The notes beneath the pieces were generated by a model. That model ran no database searches, was not told the origin of the DNA, and saw only the letters and a list, made by a program, of their open reading frames with translations. A stretch of 30,109 bases of DNA from the IMG/VR virus record IMGVR_UViG_3300042923_000304, positions 1-30,109 of that record; one strand, 5' to 3'. Shown piece by piece: positions 2,893 through 18,786 of this stretch. Numbering within the stretch: the stretch's first letter is position 1; every line of letters starts with the position of its first letter. Made by a program: the position numbers and the translations under genes. This DNA comes from a virus.

Positions 2893-3078
2893 ATGGCAAT
2901 GGGCACGAAGTCGTACATAAAGAGCGATGACAGGGAGAATAGGGGTATATTCAGTGAGATCACCAAGCAGGATTTGGTCCTCATTCTGATATTGGTTCCC
3001 CCAGCGACAGGCTTGATGTGGGGATTCATCAGAGTGGCATGGTTCGTATTATCGATGATAGGAGATGTGGTAGGATGA
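2893..3078 (+). CDS. Small membrane protein, possible holin-like
   Basis: The ribosome site GGAGG at 2881 precedes the ATG at 2893. The 61-residue protein has a charged N-terminal half (residues 1-26) and a hydrophobic C-terminal half (LVLILILVPP then WGFIRVAWFVLSMIG) that could form one long or two short transmembrane segments. It is coupled by an ATGA overlap to another protein with an N-terminal membrane segment, and an NlpC/P60 peptidase is encoded 1.3 kb downstream, so a lysis role is possible. Size and charge fit a holin or antiholin, but nothing specific proves it. Confidence 0.6.
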   Translation: MAMGTKSYIKSDDRENRGIFSEITKQDLVLILILVPPATGLMWGFIRVAWFVLSMIGDVVG

Positions 3079-3518
3079 ATACCGATCTGGGTATAGTGCT
3101 GTCGGTTTTGGCCGGAGCAATAGGTGGGTCGCTGCAATTATCGGTGCGGGAGATCATCAGGAAGCGCAGGAAGAAGGCCGAAGAGCCAGTGGAATTCACG
3201 ATGGGGCCAGCGGTCGATTCTGATGTTGAAACACCGGAGGATACAAAGGAGAAGGTCCGTACTGCGCTTTTCAGCACGCATGGTAGCCTGTACGATGCGC
3301 ATCTGCGATATGTGGCCAGAGTGGGCGCATTCACCAACCAATGTCGAATGTTGGGCATGGACGAAAAGCAGGTAGACCAAGCATTGGTCGATGTACGACA
3401 GATGTCGGAACGTACGCATTTCTCATTTGCAGCAGCGTTAGAAACTACGATAGACCTGATCAGATGGCATGGGGATGGGTATCGTATCGTGATGAGGAAC
3501 ATGAGGTATATCGAATGA
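3075..3518 (+). CDS. Membrane-anchored hypothetical protein (147 aa)
   Basis: The start at 3075 is in an ATGA overlap with the preceding stop; the longer frame from 3018 runs inside the upstream membrane gene. Residues 5-20 (LGIVLSVLAGAIGG) form a membrane segment followed by a strongly basic stop-transfer stretch (REIIRKRRKKAEE), predicting N-out/C-in topology. An acidic linker and a helical domain of about 80 residues follow. The family is not recognised. Pairing with the upstream membrane gene suggests they act together, perhaps in lysis timing or superinfection control; this is inference only. Confidence 0.6.
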   Translation: MNTDLGIVLSVLAGAIGGSLQLSVREIIRKRRKKAEEPVEFTMGPAVDSDVETPEDTKEKVRTALFSTHGSLYDAHLRYVARVGAFTNQCRMLGMDEKQVDQALVDVRQMSERTHFSFAAALETTIDLIRWHGDGYRIVMRNMRYIE

Positions 3519-11343: not shown

Positions 11344-11565
11344 ATGGGCTTATTGACTAGAAAGCAAGCAGTAATAGAAGCTGCAATACCACAGCAGATC
11401 GAGTTTATGATAGGCAATGGATATATACCGTCATGGGGGCTATTTAAGCGGTCCACAGGGTGGGAAGCCACGATCGAGAACTTGGAACTAACCAAGGCAG
11501 AGCAAGCAGATTATGAGGACAGATGGCATGCCCACCTGTTGAGAATGAAGGAGGGTTCACACTAA
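11344..11565 (+). CDS. Hypothetical protein upstream of portal (73 aa)
   Basis: AGGAGGT at 11330-11336 gives ATG 11344; the longer frame from 11230 crosses the terminator hairpin and is rejected. The protein is helical and amphipathic (TRKQAVIEAAIPQQIEFMIGNGYIPSWG, TKAEQADYEDRWHAHLLRMKEGS). Its stop overlaps the portal ATG by one base (TAATG), so it is translationally coupled to the portal. Function unknown. Confidence 0.7.
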   Translation: MGLLTRKQAVIEAAIPQQIEFMIGNGYIPSWGLFKRSTGWEATIENLELTKAEQADYEDRWHAHLLRMKEGSH

Positions 11566-13040
11566 TGCCACTACCATCTGGGAACATCTTACAGGAATGG
11601 CCACCGAAAGAACTCAAGGAGGTCAATGCCAAATACGCCGAATACGCATCGTGGTACAGCGGAGATCCTAACCAAATCGCTAATGTACAGCAATCGATGG
11701 TATATACACCGACCCCGAGAGGCAGGCACTGGGCGAAGGACGTAGGAGAAGAGCGTAGGGTCATGCTCCACATCCCGATAGCAGGAGATATAGCCAGTGT
11801 AAGTTCTGACCTGCTGTTCTCAGAAGCACCACGTATACTGATTCCGGATGCGCATATTGAGAATGCGAGTACTGCGGCCAAAAGGACACAGGATCGATTG
11901 GAAGAGCTTCTCAATTTTGGCGGCGTGTTCAATCGCCTGACCGAAGCAGCAGAGACTGGCGCGGCAATGGGCGGCGTCTACATCAAGCCTAACTGGGATA
12001 CTGCCCTTTGCGATTTTCCAGTCCTGTCGATAGTACAGGCCGATAATGCAGTCCCAGTGTTTAAATGGGGGTTCCTGCAGAGCGTGACATTCTGGAAGAC
12101 CGTCGAGGATGATGGGGATGTCGTATGGCGTCATTTGGAAAATCACGAAGTCGGCATGATCCTCAATGGTCTATATAAGGGCACGCGGGACACACTGGGC
12201 ATACAAGTGGGGCTAGACGCTCACCCAGCCACGCGGGGCCTATTGGATCGCATCGATACAGGTCTGCAGACAATCGCTGTAAGATACATCCCCAATAAGC
12301 GTCCAAACCGTGTATTTAGGGGATCGGCGCTTGGGCAGTCTGACTATGCTGGATGTGAGGGTTTGTTCGATGCGCTGGATGAGGTATGGACGTCTTGGAT
12401 ACGTGACATCCGGCTGGGTCAGGGCCGTATTACTGTGCCGGAGATGTGGCTGGAGCGCGACGAGCTTGGTAGAGTGAAATTCGACGTAGATAGGGAGATA
12501 TACACCACTCTTGACGTCGACCCGATCTCCGCACAAGGTATGGGTGCTATAATCAACCAATTCAAGATCCGTACGGAGGAACACAAAATCGCAGCGGAGC
12601 AACTAATCGATCGTATCGTCACCACTGCTGGATATTCTCCCCAGTCCTTTGGTCTTAATATAGAGGGCAGAGCAGAGAGCGGCACAGCTCTCAACATCAG
12701 AGAGCGCAAGTCGATGATGACCAAGGGCAAGAAGGAGCGGTTCTTCAAATCCGCAGTGGAGGATGTTCTGGAGATGATGCTCCACATCGACCGTGAGGTA
12801 TTCAAATCTGGCATAGAACCAATGCGTCCTAATCTCGACTTCCAAGATTCGGCATCGTTCGATCTGGAGTCGGTGTCCAAATCGGTGGAACTGATCAATA
12901 GAGCACAAGCTGCAAGCATCCGCACTCGTGTTGCCATGGTCCATCCTGATTGGACCAAAGAGCAGATCGAGGAAGAGGCCAAGGCTATACTGTCGGAGGT
13001 TGGTATTGAGACCGTCGATGAGTCTGACCTGCCAGTATAA
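11565..13040 (+). CDS. Phage portal protein (SPP1 Gp6-type)
   Basis: Forms the dodecameric ring at the capsid vertex through which TerL pumps DNA and to which the tail connects. The start at 11565 follows AAGGAGG; the ATG at 11523 lies upstream of that site. The 491-residue length fits the Gp6/PF05133 class. Characteristic parts are the N-terminal SDLLFSEAPRI segment (about residue 84-94) used across Gp6-like portals, the central beta wing region, the SGTALNIRERK segment (about 370-380) and a long C-terminal helical stem and crown. It is followed by the minor capsid gene after a terminator. No disruption seen. Confidence 0.9.
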   Translation: MPLPSGNILQEWPPKELKEVNAKYAEYASWYSGDPNQIANVQQSMVYTPTPRGRHWAKDVGEERRVMLHIPIAGDIASVSSDLLFSEAPRILIPDAHIENASTAAKRTQDRLEELLNFGGVFNRLTEAAETGAAMGGVYIKPNWDTALCDFPVLSIVQADNAVPVFKWGFLQSVTFWKTVEDDGDVVWRHLENHEVGMILNGLYKGTRDTLGIQVGLDAHPATRGLLDRIDTGLQTIAVRYIPNKRPNRVFRGSALGQSDYAGCEGLFDALDEVWTSWIRDIRLGQGRITVPEMWLERDELGRVKFDVDREIYTTLDVDPISAQGMGAIINQFKIRTEEHKIAAEQLIDRIVTTAGYSPQSFGLNIEGRAESGTALNIRERKSMMTKGKKERFFKSAVEDVLEMMLHIDREVFKSGIEPMRPNLDFQDSASFDLESVSKSVELINRAQAASIRTRVAMVHPDWTKEQIEEEAKAILSEVGIETVDESDLPV

Positions 13041-13096: not shown

Positions 13097-14167
13097 ATGG
13101 CGTACGCAGCAGGTAAGCAAGAGGAAGTTCTAAGGCGGATAAGGCAGATATACGCAGATGCAGAGGTATCTATCTTGTCTAGGATGGCAAAATTGCTAAT
13201 ATCTGGACCGGACAATGTCGATCATTGGACCACTAAGAAACTAGCCGACATCCGCAGAAACATGGCCCAGATAGAGGGCATTCTCAAGCAGTTGGATGGC
13301 GGTGTGAGCGAGGAGGCTCTGCAGGCTATCACCAATGCCTATATCAACGGGTATCAGGCAGCAGCGACTAGTGCGGCATCCGCTGGTATAACAACTACTG
13401 GGGCGACTGTCACTGCAATATCACAGGTGGGGGCGATGAATCTGTCGGCAGTGAATGCTTTGGCATCTGCGGCTGCAGGAAATCTGTCGGCCACGCACCT
13501 ACCCATACTTCGATCGGCTAATGATGTCTATCGCCGCGCAATATTCGAGACTGCTTCATTGGTCAGTACTGGCACAATGACGAGGAAGCAGGCCACCCAA
13601 GCTGCCCTGAACAAGATGGCTGATGCGGGTCTGTCCGGATTCGTGGACGCCAAAGGGCGCAAGTGGGATATGGCCAGCTATGCAGAGATGTCCATTCGAT
13701 CCGCCGTAGTACAGGCATCCGTCGACGGCCATGTGAAGCAACTATCCGAATATGGCCGAAATCTGGTCATCGTGTCGGAGCATACTAGGGAGTGTCCACT
13801 ATGCAGGCCGTGGGAGGGAAAAGTCCTCTGTACTGATGGCTCAGACCCCAAGTACCCTACACTGGCAGCGGCCAGAACTGGCGGGCTATTCCACCCTAAC
13901 TGCGGGCACACGATAAGTATCTATATCGATGGTGTCACAGAGATCCCCAAGAACACAGAGGACCCGATCGGATATGCGGCCCAGCAGAAGCAACGGTACA
14001 ATGAGCGGGCCATCCGGAAATGGAAGAAACGGGAGGCCGTGGCCGTATTACCAGAGGATCAAGCATTCGCCCGATCCAAGGTACGGTCATGGCAGCAGGC
14101 CCAGCGCAAGCATCTGGATGGTAAGGACCTACCGCGCAAGTATGATAGAGAGCGCATAAGAGTATAG
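13097..14167 (+). CDS. Phage minor capsid protein (Phage_min_cap2-like)
   Basis: Head morphogenesis protein bound to the portal inside the procapsid. CGGAGGTG precedes ATG 13097. Residues 1-100 are helical, and 100-150 are rich in Ala, Ser and Thr. The diagnostic C-terminal part contains CPLC (Cys233, Cys236) in EHTRECPLCRPW and HPNCGH (His266, Cys269, His271), the putative metal-binding pattern conserved in this family and related to MuF-type proteins. A basic C-terminal tail follows (RKWKKREA). At 356 residues it is of normal length for the family. Position between portal and scaffold supports it. Confidence 0.88.
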   Translation: MAYAAGKQEEVLRRIRQIYADAEVSILSRMAKLLISGPDNVDHWTTKKLADIRRNMAQIEGILKQLDGGVSEEALQAITNAYINGYQAAATSAASAGITTTGATVTAISQVGAMNLSAVNALASAAAGNLSATHLPILRSANDVYRRAIFETASLVSTGTMTRKQATQAALNKMADAGLSGFVDAKGRKWDMASYAEMSIRSAVVQASVDGHVKQLSEYGRNLVIVSEHTRECPLCRPWEGKVLCTDGSDPKYPTLAAARTGGLFHPNCGHTISIYIDGVTEIPKNTEDPIGYAAQQKQRYNERAIRKWKKREAVAVLPEDQAFARSKVRSWQQAQRKHLDGKDLPRKYDRERIRV

Positions 14168-14217
14168 CACATGACGGCATATCTCTGTTAGTATTCGTGG
14201 CGAGGAGTTGAGGGTAT

Positions 14218-14415
14218 ATGGTGAAGATCAACGTTAGGTCTAAGGACGGGTACATAGAGATAGTGGCGGATGGGCATGCAAACTCTGCGCCACACGGGCA
14301 GGACATCATCTGCGCATCCGTATCAGCTATCCTACAGACCGCCATATTGGGGCTAGAGGCGATCGCTGATCAATATCCCGACCGTGTGCAAATGCGCTAC
14401 GATAGCGCTGAATAA
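14218..14415 (+). CDS. prp: Prp-like cysteine protease, compact phage form (65 aa)
   Basis: Homologue of the ribosomal-processing cysteine protease Prp (YsxB family), which in Firmicutes removes an N-terminal extension from ribosomal protein L27. The conserved catalytic stretch is present: GHAN with His20 and HGQDIICASVSA with Cys32, 12 residues apart as in cellular Prp. At 65 residues it is much shorter than the usual 100-115; the segment after the Cys helix seems missing, so that helix runs straight into the terminal ILGLEAIADQYP-type helix and last strand. It lies directly upstream of scaffold and coat, both with an LNLQMF motif near the N-terminus, so it is the likely capsid maturation protease. 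No frameshift explains the short length. Confidence 0.82.
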   Translation: MVKINVRSKDGYIEIVADGHANSAPHGQDIICASVSAILQTAILGLEAIADQYPDRVQMRYDSAE

Positions 14416-14463
14416 ATAATCGGTACTGCGTACGTAGCAGGGTAAAAATTCGGAGGTGTGACA

Positions 14464-15240
14464 ATGTTCAAGGCAAAATGGCAGTTAAATTTACAGATGT
14501 TCAACGATGGCGGTGAAGGTGGTGCAGGTGCTGGGAACGGCGCAGGCGGTGCTGGATCTGGTGAAGGTGGTAGTGGTAGTGGTGAAGGTTCTGGCGGTAA
14601 CGGCGGACAAAATCACTCTGGCACCGGAGGTCAAGGAGGTAGCGGTGGTGAGGTAAAACCTTACTTATCGTTTCCGGATGAGGCCAGCTTCATGTCACGC
14701 ATTAAACGCGAGGGCAGCAAACAGGTTGGGGAGTTCCTAAAGGGCTTGGGATTTGAGAAGCAGGAAGACCTCAAGACCATCATCGACACGCATCAGGCGA
14801 ATATCGAGGCTGGCAAGACTGAACTGCAGAAGGAGAAAGATCGTAATGCCGCTCTTGAGAAGGAGCGCAACACGGCGATCGAGACTTCCAATGCTATCTT
14901 GCGCAAGGCAGATGCAAAATTGCAGGCTGCAGCGTTGGGTATCAAACCAGAGCGCGTGGATTATGCTCTGAAACTCGCTAATATTGATGCCGTGGAGGTC
15001 AAAGATGGTGTGGTTGACAATGCAGCCATTAAGGCTGCTCTAGAAGCCGTACTAAAGGACCTGCCGGAATTAAAAGGCGTGGCAGTACCACCTGCTGGCG
15101 GTGGGGATTTCGGCGGAGGTAGCGGTGGGGGCGGCAAGCCACCATTGACCATGGAGCTAATTCGTGGGATGACTACTGCGGAATCCGAAGCTAGATTGCC
15201 TGAGATCATGGAGTTCCTATCTAAGAATAGCAACAACTGA
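14464..15240 (+). CDS. Capsid scaffolding protein with Prp-type cleavage motif
   Basis: Internal scaffold for procapsid assembly. GGAGGTG at 14452-14458 lies 5 bases before ATG 14464. Residues 8-13 (LNLQMF) match the Prp recognition motif of L27 precursors. Residues 15-60 are a Gly/Ser-rich linker, followed by a folded segment (about 64-95), a long charged coiled coil (about 95-155, EKERNTAIETSNAILRKADA) and a helical domain ending in a Gly-rich hinge (about 215-228) and a C-terminal helix (PEIMEFLSKN) likely to touch the coat. Length 258 residues, acidic. The Prp-like gene is directly upstream and the major capsid gene directly downstream. Confidence 0.87.
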   Translation: MFKAKWQLNLQMFNDGGEGGAGAGNGAGGAGSGEGGSGSGEGSGGNGGQNHSGTGGQGGSGGEVKPYLSFPDEASFMSRIKREGSKQVGEFLKGLGFEKQEDLKTIIDTHQANIEAGKTELQKEKDRNAALEKERNTAIETSNAILRKADAKLQAAALGIKPERVDYALKLANIDAVEVKDGVVDNAAIKAALEAVLKDLPELKGVAVPPAGGGDFGGGSGGGGKPPLTMELIRGMTTAESEARLPEIMEFLSKNSNN

Positions 15241-15272
15241 TCACAGAGCACCATTCGAGGAGTGACGCAAAA

Positions 15273-16181
15273 ATGAAGAGCAAGAAGAGCAAAATCTTGG
15301 GTCTAATGGGCGGTTTGAACCTCCAAATGTTCACGCTCAATAATTTCATCCCACAAGTATGGTCCGCACAACTACTGGTAAGCCTGAAAAAGGCACTAGT
15401 ATACGGACAAACTGGTATCGTTAACCGCGATTACCAAGGCGAGATCACCGCATACGGCGATACTGTCAAGATCAATGATATCGGTGCTGTAACGATTGGT
15501 GATTACACCAAGAATACGAACATCGAAGATCCAGAGGCGCTGACAGATGCCACTCGTACTTTGCAGATCACGCAAGCGAAATACTTCAACTTCCAAGTTG
15601 ATGATATCGACCGTGCACAGCAAAATCCGAAGGTTATGGCACAGGCGATGGTAGAGGCAGCGTATGCTCTGCGCGACGTAGCTGACCAATTCATCGCATC
15701 GCAGCATGTAGGCGTAGCTGCCTCGAACACGATCGGTGATGACACGACTCCAGTCGTGGCCACTAAAGCCGACGCGTATGAGTATCTCGTGGATCTGTCG
15801 GTCAAGCTGGATGAGGCGAACGTCCCTGAGAATGGCCGCTTCGTTGTAATCCCACCTTGGTATGAGGGCCTCATGCTGAAAGACGATCGTTTCGTCCAGA
15901 ATGGTACGACTTCCGGTGTGGAGACTTTGATGAATGGCCAGATCGGCGCTGCTGCTGGCTTCAACATTCTTAAGTCTAACAACGTGCCTAACACTGCTGG
16001 CACTAAGTACAAGATCATCGCTGGCTACAATGGCGCGATTTCGTACGCTGAGCAGGTAAACCAAGTGGAAGGCTACCGTCCAGAGAAGCGATTCGCAGAT
16101 GCGGTCAAAGGTTTGCACCTGTACGGTGCGAAGCTGGTACGCCCTACTGGTATCGCAGTAATGACGGCCAACAAAGCCTAG
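15273..16181 (+). CDS. Major capsid protein with N-terminal Prp-type motif
   Basis: Main shell protein, HK97-type fold inferred from position and length (302 aa). GAGGAGTG precedes the start at 15273. The N-terminus is basic, with LNLQMF at residues 15-20 followed by TLNNFIPQVW; removal after Phe20 would leave a mature coat of 282 residues. Coat-like features are VYGQTGIVNRDYQG (E-loop region), GDTVKINDIGAVTIGDY, a spine-like helix (NPKVMAQAMVEAAYALRDVADQF) and a C-terminal P-domain strand. Codon use is smoother than in neighbouring accessory genes, as expected of a highly expressed gene. Strong hairpins follow directly. Confidence 0.92.
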   Translation: MKSKKSKILGLMGGLNLQMFTLNNFIPQVWSAQLLVSLKKALVYGQTGIVNRDYQGEITAYGDTVKINDIGAVTIGDYTKNTNIEDPEALTDATRTLQITQAKYFNFQVDDIDRAQQNPKVMAQAMVEAAYALRDVADQFIASQHVGVAASNTIGDDTTPVVATKADAYEYLVDLSVKLDEANVPENGRFVVIPPWYEGLMLKDDRFVQNGTTSGVETLMNGQIGAAAGFNILKSNNVPNTAGTKYKIIAGYNGAISYAEQVNQVEGYRPEKRFADAVKGLHLYGAKLVRPTGIAVMTANKA

Positions 16182-18077: not shown

Positions 18078-18254
18078 ATGAAGGTAAGAACAAAGCAGAA
18101 GAATGGCCGAGTGGGTTTGAATCGCGACTATTGGGATGTAAAAAACCACGTCGCAGTCATCCCCGATGAAGCGGCCAAGGTGCTATTGGAGCGGCACCCA
18201 GAAGAGTTCCAACAATACGAAAAAGAGGAAGTGACCGAAGATGGCAGTATCTAA
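18078..18254 (+). CDS. Small protein before the major tail gene (58 aa)
   Basis: GGGGTGATCCGG upstream of ATG 18078 gives a usable ribosome site; the frame closes at 18252-18254, overlapping the tail tube gene by 14 bases. The protein has a basic N-terminus (MKVRTKQKNG), a middle strand (HVAVIPDEAA) and an acidic helical C-terminus (LLERHPEEFQQYEKEEV). Small proteins of this shape are frequent just before major tail genes in Firmicute phages and may regulate or chaperone assembly. The family is not named here. Confidence 0.7.
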   Translation: MKVRTKQKNGRVGLNRDYWDVKNHVAVIPDEAAKVLLERHPEEFQQYEKEEVTEDGSI

Positions 18255-18786
18255 TGAAACGAAGATCCTAGGTATCAATGACCTTAAGATCTCCGAATTG
18301 ATGGTGGATGATTCCACGACCCTGACGTATGACACGCCTGTAGACGTACCGGGTATCACGAACTTGCAGGTATCGCCTAACTTCGTGGAGAAGGAGCTGC
18401 GCGGTGATGAGACAGTGTTGGATAAGTACTCCAAATTGGACTCGATCAACTGGTCCATCTCTAACGTCATCATGTCGCTTGACGCTCTGGCAGTCATGAT
18501 CGGCGGTACAGTGGCGACATCCGGCGTCACTCCTGCGGAGAAGAAGACGTACACTCTGCTCAGTTCCGACCTTCCGAAGTACTTCAAGATGGAAGGCCAA
18601 TCGGAATATTCTGATGCAGGTGACGTGCACGTGATCCTGTTCAAATGCAAGGCATCCAGCGTACAATACGAGCTGCGTGGTGAAGATTACGCGACTGTGA
18701 CGGCATCCGGCACGGGCATCGGCACCAAGAAAGACAAAAAGATCAAGGAAATCGTGATCAACGAAGCGGTTACTCCTATCGAATAG
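18241..18786 (+). CDS. Major tail (tube) protein
   Basis: Subunit of the tail tube. The start at 18241 lies in the end of the previous gene. The 181-residue protein is beta-rich with strands around TLTYDTPVDVPGITNLQVSP, a conserved charged motif (KELRGDETVLDKYSKLDSINWSI) typical of siphophage tube proteins, a central helix (SLDALAVMIGG) and C-terminal strands (HVILFKCKASSVQYELRG, KIKEIVINEA). No extra Ig-like domain. The GDE-x4-DKYSKLD segment is one of the best identifiers. It is followed by a terminator and then the chaperone genes. Confidence 0.88.
   Translation: MAVSNETKILGINDLKISELMVDDSTTLTYDTPVDVPGITNLQVSPNFVEKELRGDETVLDKYSKLDSINWSISNVIMSLDALAVMIGGTVATSGVTPAEKKTYTLLSSDLPKYFKMEGQSEYSDAGDVHVILFKCKASSVQYELRGEDYATVTASGTGIGTKKDKKIKEIVINEAVTPIE

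Follow-up and report, generated by a model that had tools for sequence, protein, structure and literature searches.

The virus sequence analyzed here, IMG/VR record IMGVR_UViG_3300042923_000304 (30,109 bases, 51% G+C; hereafter the window), carries a head operon in which a gene for a protease of the Prp family lies between the genes for the minor head protein and the scaffold, in the order portal (11523-13040), minor head protein (13097-14167), Prp (14218-14415), scaffold (14464-15240), and coat (15273-16181). At 65 residues the enzyme is about half the usual length of a Prp, and the scaffold and coat share the hexamer LNLQMF near their N-termini (residues 8-13 and 15-20, respectively). An earlier note on this DNA had described a Prp-like gene with His20 and Cys32 directly upstream of the scaffold and coat genes, together with the two hexamers, and its coordinates and residue numbers are correct. 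Our sequence comparisons indicate that this mini-Prp very probably trims the scaffold and coat of its phage during head assembly. The features concerned are as follows.

14202-14207, plus strand: Shine-Dalgarno-like GAGGAG of the prp gene (sequence).
14218-14415, plus strand: mini-Prp cysteine protease, 65 residues, internally deleted, with a predicted beta-beta-alpha fold and a C-terminal segment (PF04327, two-block match to 4peo, model).
14275-14277, plus strand: codon of catalytic His20, equivalent to His22 of Staphylococcus aureus Prp (alignments; catalytic role from PMC9405229).
14311-14313, plus strand: codon of catalytic Cys32, equivalent to Cys34 of S. aureus Prp (alignments).
14452-14457, plus strand: Shine-Dalgarno GGAGGT of the scaffold gene (sequence).
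14464-15240, plus strand: scaffolding protein (PHROG 2303 head scaffolding protein, E = 1.9e-22); a GTG at 14458 is another possible start.
14485-14502, plus strand: LNLQMF, scaffold residues 8-13, with a predicted cut at Phe13/Asn14 (sequence).
15257-15262, plus strand: Shine-Dalgarno-like GAGGAG of the coat gene (sequence).
15273-16181, plus strand: major capsid protein, 302 residues (PHROG 267 major head protein, E = 1.2e-73; PF19821, E = 6e-7).
15273-15332, plus strand: 20-residue coat leader with LNLQMF at its end (codons 15315-15332), a predicted cut at Phe20/Thr21, and a predicted mature start TLNNFIPQVW (homologue comparison).

A good ribosome-binding site precedes each of the prp, scaffold, and coat genes, so the starts and the residue numbers that follow from them are reasonable; for the scaffold, ATG 14464 was taken as the start because of the GGAGGT upstream.

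The proposal of the earlier note that the phage owns a Prp is borne out by the open reading frame (ORF), which matches PF04327 with E = 4.6e-15 (56 bits, cut-off 27) and PHROG 4478 'peptidase' with E = 7e-13. The gene is under purifying selection, with a ratio of nonsynonymous to synonymous substitution rates (dN/dS) of 0.11 against its nearest relative, locus L015. Known Prps are about 105-110 residues long. Alignment with full-length phage Prps shows that the window enzyme retains the catalytic half and the C-terminal 'GLxxIAxQYPxxV' and lacks about 35 central residues, and S. aureus Prp (4peo) aligns to it twice, query residues 3-55 with chain residues 5-57 and query residues 35-61 with chain residues 79-105. 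In these alignments Gly19, His20, Asp29, Cys32, and Ser36 correspond to Gly21, His22, Asp31, Cys34, and Ser38 of S. aureus Prp, positions at which mutation inactivates that enzyme (PMC9405229). The same architecture is found in nine minis, and the catalytic residues are retained in all minis aligned. Truncation by a frameshift is ruled out, as the nine independent minis are equally long and keep the C-terminal YP segment in register. With a score of 42 bits against the 133 of the full-length NCBIfam equivalog cut-offs, the window Prp is a divergent half-length branch of the PF04327/C108 family rather than a typical member, and this half-length enzyme, which the earlier note did not mention, is the chief oddity of the locus.

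Chance is ruled out as the origin of the twin motifs both by shuffling and by motif counts in control ORFs (given below). A shared hexamer arose in 13 of 200,000 trials with shuffled 35-residue pieces of the scaffold and coat, and of the four occurrences of the pattern [LMIVF]x[LMIV]QxF across all the window's ORFs, two lie at the scaffold and coat N-termini. The hexamer codons differ between the two genes (TTA AAT TTA CAG ATG TTC versus TTG AAC CTC CAA ATG TTC), so it is the protein sequence that has been kept alike, and a recent DNA copy or a shared DNA duplication is ruled out as the source of the match.

The relatives of the coat tie the leader to the enzyme. Homologous coats were gathered from phages and viral contigs and reduced to 47 non-redundant members. 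Of these, 7 combine a phage Prp with a leader bearing a Prp-like site, 40 have neither, and none has one without the other (Fisher p = 1.6e-8, a value that is not corrected for kinship). On a tree of the coats these labels need three changes, and both traits switch together in all three independent pairs. L017, with Prp and leader, and L018, with neither throughout its whole 17-kilobase contig, are sisters, and six further Firmicute prophages with a window-type coat had no leader and no Prp within the stretch examined. The leaderless coats start M-x-x-NFIP, just before the equivalent of Thr21 and in register with the TLNNFIP that a cut after Phe20 would leave; together with the pairing of leader and phage Prp, this argues for the cuts after Phe13 of the scaffold and Phe20 of the coat that the earlier note had proposed. 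A motif in the scaffold only, with no phage Prp, is present in AP45, D6E, L018, L022, L027, L029-L031, and L090, which suggests that the host enzyme serves these relatives.

A phage-encoded Prp is not in itself unusual, as dozens of unrelated phages carry one. Used by itself as the query against viral contigs, the window Prp gave no matches, and loci were collected with a degenerate DNA pattern for the Prp active site; the pattern demands an Asp three residues before the Cys, and the invariance of that Asp in the full-length set was not used as evidence. Among 55 non-redundant loci with a full-length phage Prp, the motif stands at at least one neighbouring N-terminus in 44 and at two in 29, compared with 9 of 272 control ORFs (3%). 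The scaffold and coat motifs agree at 4.36 of 6 positions within a phage and at 3.68 of 6 between phages (p < 1e-4 by a shuffling that ignores kinship), and the likeness within a phage lies mostly at P2 (70% versus 41% between phages). Judged from these loci, a phage Prp with paired motifs is a common and widespread arrangement, and it fits the biology of phages 80alpha and Cp-1, discussed below.

Several further observations were made on these loci. In L096, L125, L161, L181, L184, and L196 a third protein of about 177-208 residues, encoded about 3.1-3.6 kilobases downstream of Prp and probably the major tail protein, also begins with the motif (e.g. MKKFNLQLFAEAVQGKK). A Prp-type motif has been mentioned on a phi13 tail protein (PMC5744158), and the tail candidate of the window (18241-18786) has none at its start. 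In Dorea phage DO134P1 (L012) a full-length Prp gene lies at 2995-3285, unannotated in the published genome.

When an alignment of minis was used as the query, 203 stretches matched in IMG/VR, and a mini pattern gave 19 genome matches, in Brevibacillus and in Streptomyces and its relatives. In the Brevibacillus genomes, which also contain the prophage mini, a full-length chromosomal Prp adjoins a long L27 that carries the sequence DLQFF/A. In 11 actinobacterial genomes the single Prp-family match is the mini itself, and the L27 of these genomes is short and starts MAHKKG; across 396 further Actinomycetota genomes there were two Prp matches, of which one was the mini of the starting genome and the second fell below the cut-off. 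The scaffold and coat of the actinobacterial mini phages share a matched W-F-x-L-x-R-H/D. In 24 non-redundant loci, W-F-x-L-x-R-H/D is found on the scaffold side in 17, on the coat side in 14, and on both in 12, and 31 of its 38 occurrences in 203 kilobases fall at N-terminal sites of scaffold or coat. The variants FDLRRF/D, FDLARF/D, and WAFQLDRH/D fill several of the places that lack W-F-x-L-x-R-H/D and bridge to the FDLQRF/N of the Brevibacillus minis. From the register with LNLQMF, the cut in FxLxRH/D would follow the His. Locus L245, with a Prp of the full-length type, has possible sites that likewise end in His (coat IFDLQAH/TSTN, scaffold GGLQSH/TEGG) and is a possible intermediate in P1 preference.

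The loop beside the catalytic Cys and the cutting site change jointly. In the crystal structure of S. aureus Prp, the P3 Gln of the substrate bonds with Gly29 and Asp31 of a mobile loop (PMC9405229). Where the mini has an equivalent of Asp31 (an Asp three residues before the Cys) and a recognisable site is present, P3 is Gln in 11 of 11 loci; where the mini lacks it and has a shorter loop (-GRVCA or -DPIICA), P3 is Gln in 1 of 23. This joint loss of Asp and Gln matches the Gln-Asp31 contact in the structure. Two of the 23 loci without the Asp, L240 and L268, have coats that belong to the window's family, with the sites INLFLF/G plus LKLDRF/T and FNLSLF/G plus ITLNRF/T, so the loss happened at least twice. 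In these two minis the shortened loops read DHATDPIICA and DHAKDPTVCA, and their scores lie just under the Pfam cut-off. A second shift concerns P1', which is Ala at 63 of 82 sites of full-length phage Prps but at 3 of 19 sites of Asp-bearing minis (p = 1.2e-6) and is Asn in the scaffold and Thr in the coat of the window. The remark of the earlier note that these residues may tune specificity to the phage enzyme is supported by this shift, and a changed S1' preference is a reasonable idea. Taken together, these patterns indicate that enzyme and cutting sites evolve together across hundreds of related phages, including those whose hosts lack a Prp.

An AlphaFold model of the window mini-Prp is a beta-beta-alpha fold with a mean predicted local distance difference test (pLDDT) score of 87. 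A Foldseek search of the PDB with this 65-residue model returned no match at E <= 0.001, and with VIA-align the six top-ranking entries were all Prps, at low Z-scores of 3.8-4.1 over 51-57 residues and aligned with the window mini mostly through their C-terminal halves. For an actinobacterial mini the best structural match was 7kld (Z 4.7, 57 residues, 2.5 Å), with the mini lying on the N-terminal half of 7kld and on the C-terminal half of 2g0i and 4peo. These alignments, with their low Z-scores, hint at a full-length Prp built from two halves that resemble each other, and at a dimer of minis as a possible way to rebuild the fold.

The family, catalytic residues, internal deletion, paired motifs, co-occurrence of Prp and leader, and joint change of loop and motif are all read directly in the sequences. 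From them we infer that cleavage takes place, that this enzyme is the cutter, and which bond it cuts. In the proposed mechanism the half-length, catalytically intact mini-Prp would act while the head assembles: it would bind the N-terminal LNLQMF of the phage's scaffold and coat and cut after the Phe of each (Phe13/Asn14 and Phe20/Thr21), and the trimmed coat would begin where its leaderless relatives naturally begin. The mini may work as a dimer that rebuilds the full-length fold. It is plausible that the leader acts before or during assembly, in folding or in scaffold contact, and is removed later to yield the standard N-arm. Several points weigh against this mechanism. The tree-aware test of the coats draws on no more than three independent pairs (sign test p = 0.25), and the covariation of Asp and Gln rests on few lineages. 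The C108 fold has a second beta-beta-alpha unit that the mini lacks, and the mini could be inactive on its own. In addition, 80alpha can do without cleavage of coat and scaffold but needs the scaffold N-terminus (PMC5744158), and binding may therefore be more important than cutting.

The motifs might instead be cut by the host's chromosomal Prp, with the phage gene a degenerate remnant or serving another role. Phage 80alpha depends on its host's Prp (PMC5744158), the scaffold-only motifs of AP45, D6E, and several viral contigs occur with no phage Prp, and the Brevibacillus hosts of minis own a chromosomal Prp adjoining L27. However, the coat leader is never seen without a phage Prp (0 of 40), a degenerate gene fits poorly with catalytic residues retained in all aligned minis and with the low dN/dS, and the actinobacterial minis reside in genomes without any other Prp; we consider this explanation unlikely. 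Somewhat less probable still is that the mini-Prp binds without cutting, as an assembly chaperone or a competitor of the host Prp, and that the motif is an uncleaved assembly signal. A chaperone role has been proposed for Prp (PMC9405229), half of the Prp fold is absent from the mini, and the requirements of 80alpha just described favour binding; yet a pure binder needs neither the conserved His, Cys, Asp, and Ser nor a predicted cut that falls exactly where leaderless coats begin. The resemblance of the motif to L27, including the Brevibacillus DLQFF/A, also allows that the phage Prp mainly targets the L27 of its host, to boost or change ribosome assembly, with the capsid motifs riding along. 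This is highly improbable, as every lineage seen has prp within its head operon, the L27 of the actinobacterial hosts offers nothing to cut, and the altered FxLxRH motif is confined to phage proteins.

Trimming of scaffold and coat by the phage's own mini-Prp thus remains the favoured explanation. A broader proposal, on which our confidence is evenly divided, is that mini-Prps (61-72 residues) form a distinct class of head-maturation proteases that would work as dimers in which each chain supplies half of the Prp fold. Their specificity would have moved from LNLQxF/A to LNLQxF/N/T in phages of Bacilli and to FxLxRH/D in actinobacteriophages, through coordinated loss of the Asp31 equivalent and the P3 Gln, in hosts without Prp or a cleavable L27.

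The nearest known counterparts each share part of this arrangement. S. aureus Prp (MEROPS C108, clan CR; PDB 4PEO, 7KLD, 7JVS) has the family, the His/Cys and Gly/Asp/Ser residues, and the LNLQxF motif in common with the window Prp, but it is a full-length host enzyme acting on L27. The scaffold gp46 and coat gp47 of 80alpha carry matching motifs at both N-termini, as in the window, and are cut after Phe by the host Prp; unlike the window phage, 80alpha encodes no protease itself, and its P1' residue is Ala rather than Asn or Thr. The protease of pneumococcal phage Cp-1, as described in reviews, is phage-encoded, belongs to the same MEROPS clan CR, and trims 48 residues off its own major head protein, and the likeness to the window phage is drawn at the level of those descriptions. 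The peptidases of Enterococcus phage phiFL3A (gp45), Oenococcus phage Krappator27, and Acutalibacter phage Fontainebleau are head-operon Prps with paired scaffold and coat motifs, but they are full length (98-104 residues), and their records do not discuss them as capsid proteases. Streptomyces phage Kromp gp6 ('protease', 62 residues) is a head-operon mini-Prp 45% identical to the window enzyme; it differs in its paired WFQLTRH/D and WFRLDRH/D and in a shorter loop without the Asp31 equivalent.

Cutting of the 80alpha proteins by host Prp and the place of the Cp-1 protease in clan CR are already known, and phage Prps are already annotated as 'peptidase' or 'Prp', including a 61-residue UniProt entry. 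In the open-licence literature, apart from the work on 80alpha and the Cp-1 citation, we found no paper in which a phage-encoded Prp acts on capsid proteins, and no description of half-length Prps, of a paired-motif rule across phages, or of the actinobacterial FxLxRH/D pairs. What makes the locus interesting is the mini form together with its altered sites. Elsewhere in the window, two GDSL-lipase-like genes (PF13472; 8584-9804 and 10163-11269) lie between terminase and portal, an unusual location.

These findings turn Prp-dependent head maturation from the lone case of 80alpha and its host enzyme into a widespread strategy with dedicated phage enzymes and paired sites. The phages provide a natural series of proteases and substrates in which shifts in specificity can be read from sequence. 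If active, the forms of 62-65 residues would be among the smallest cysteine proteases, and they would reveal which of the two Prp halves is indispensable. Since the actinobacterial hosts have neither a Prp nor a long L27, the enzyme-site pairs of their phages uncouple the processing of capsids from that of L27, and the purpose of coat trimming thereby becomes testable in actinobacteria without disturbing ribosomes.
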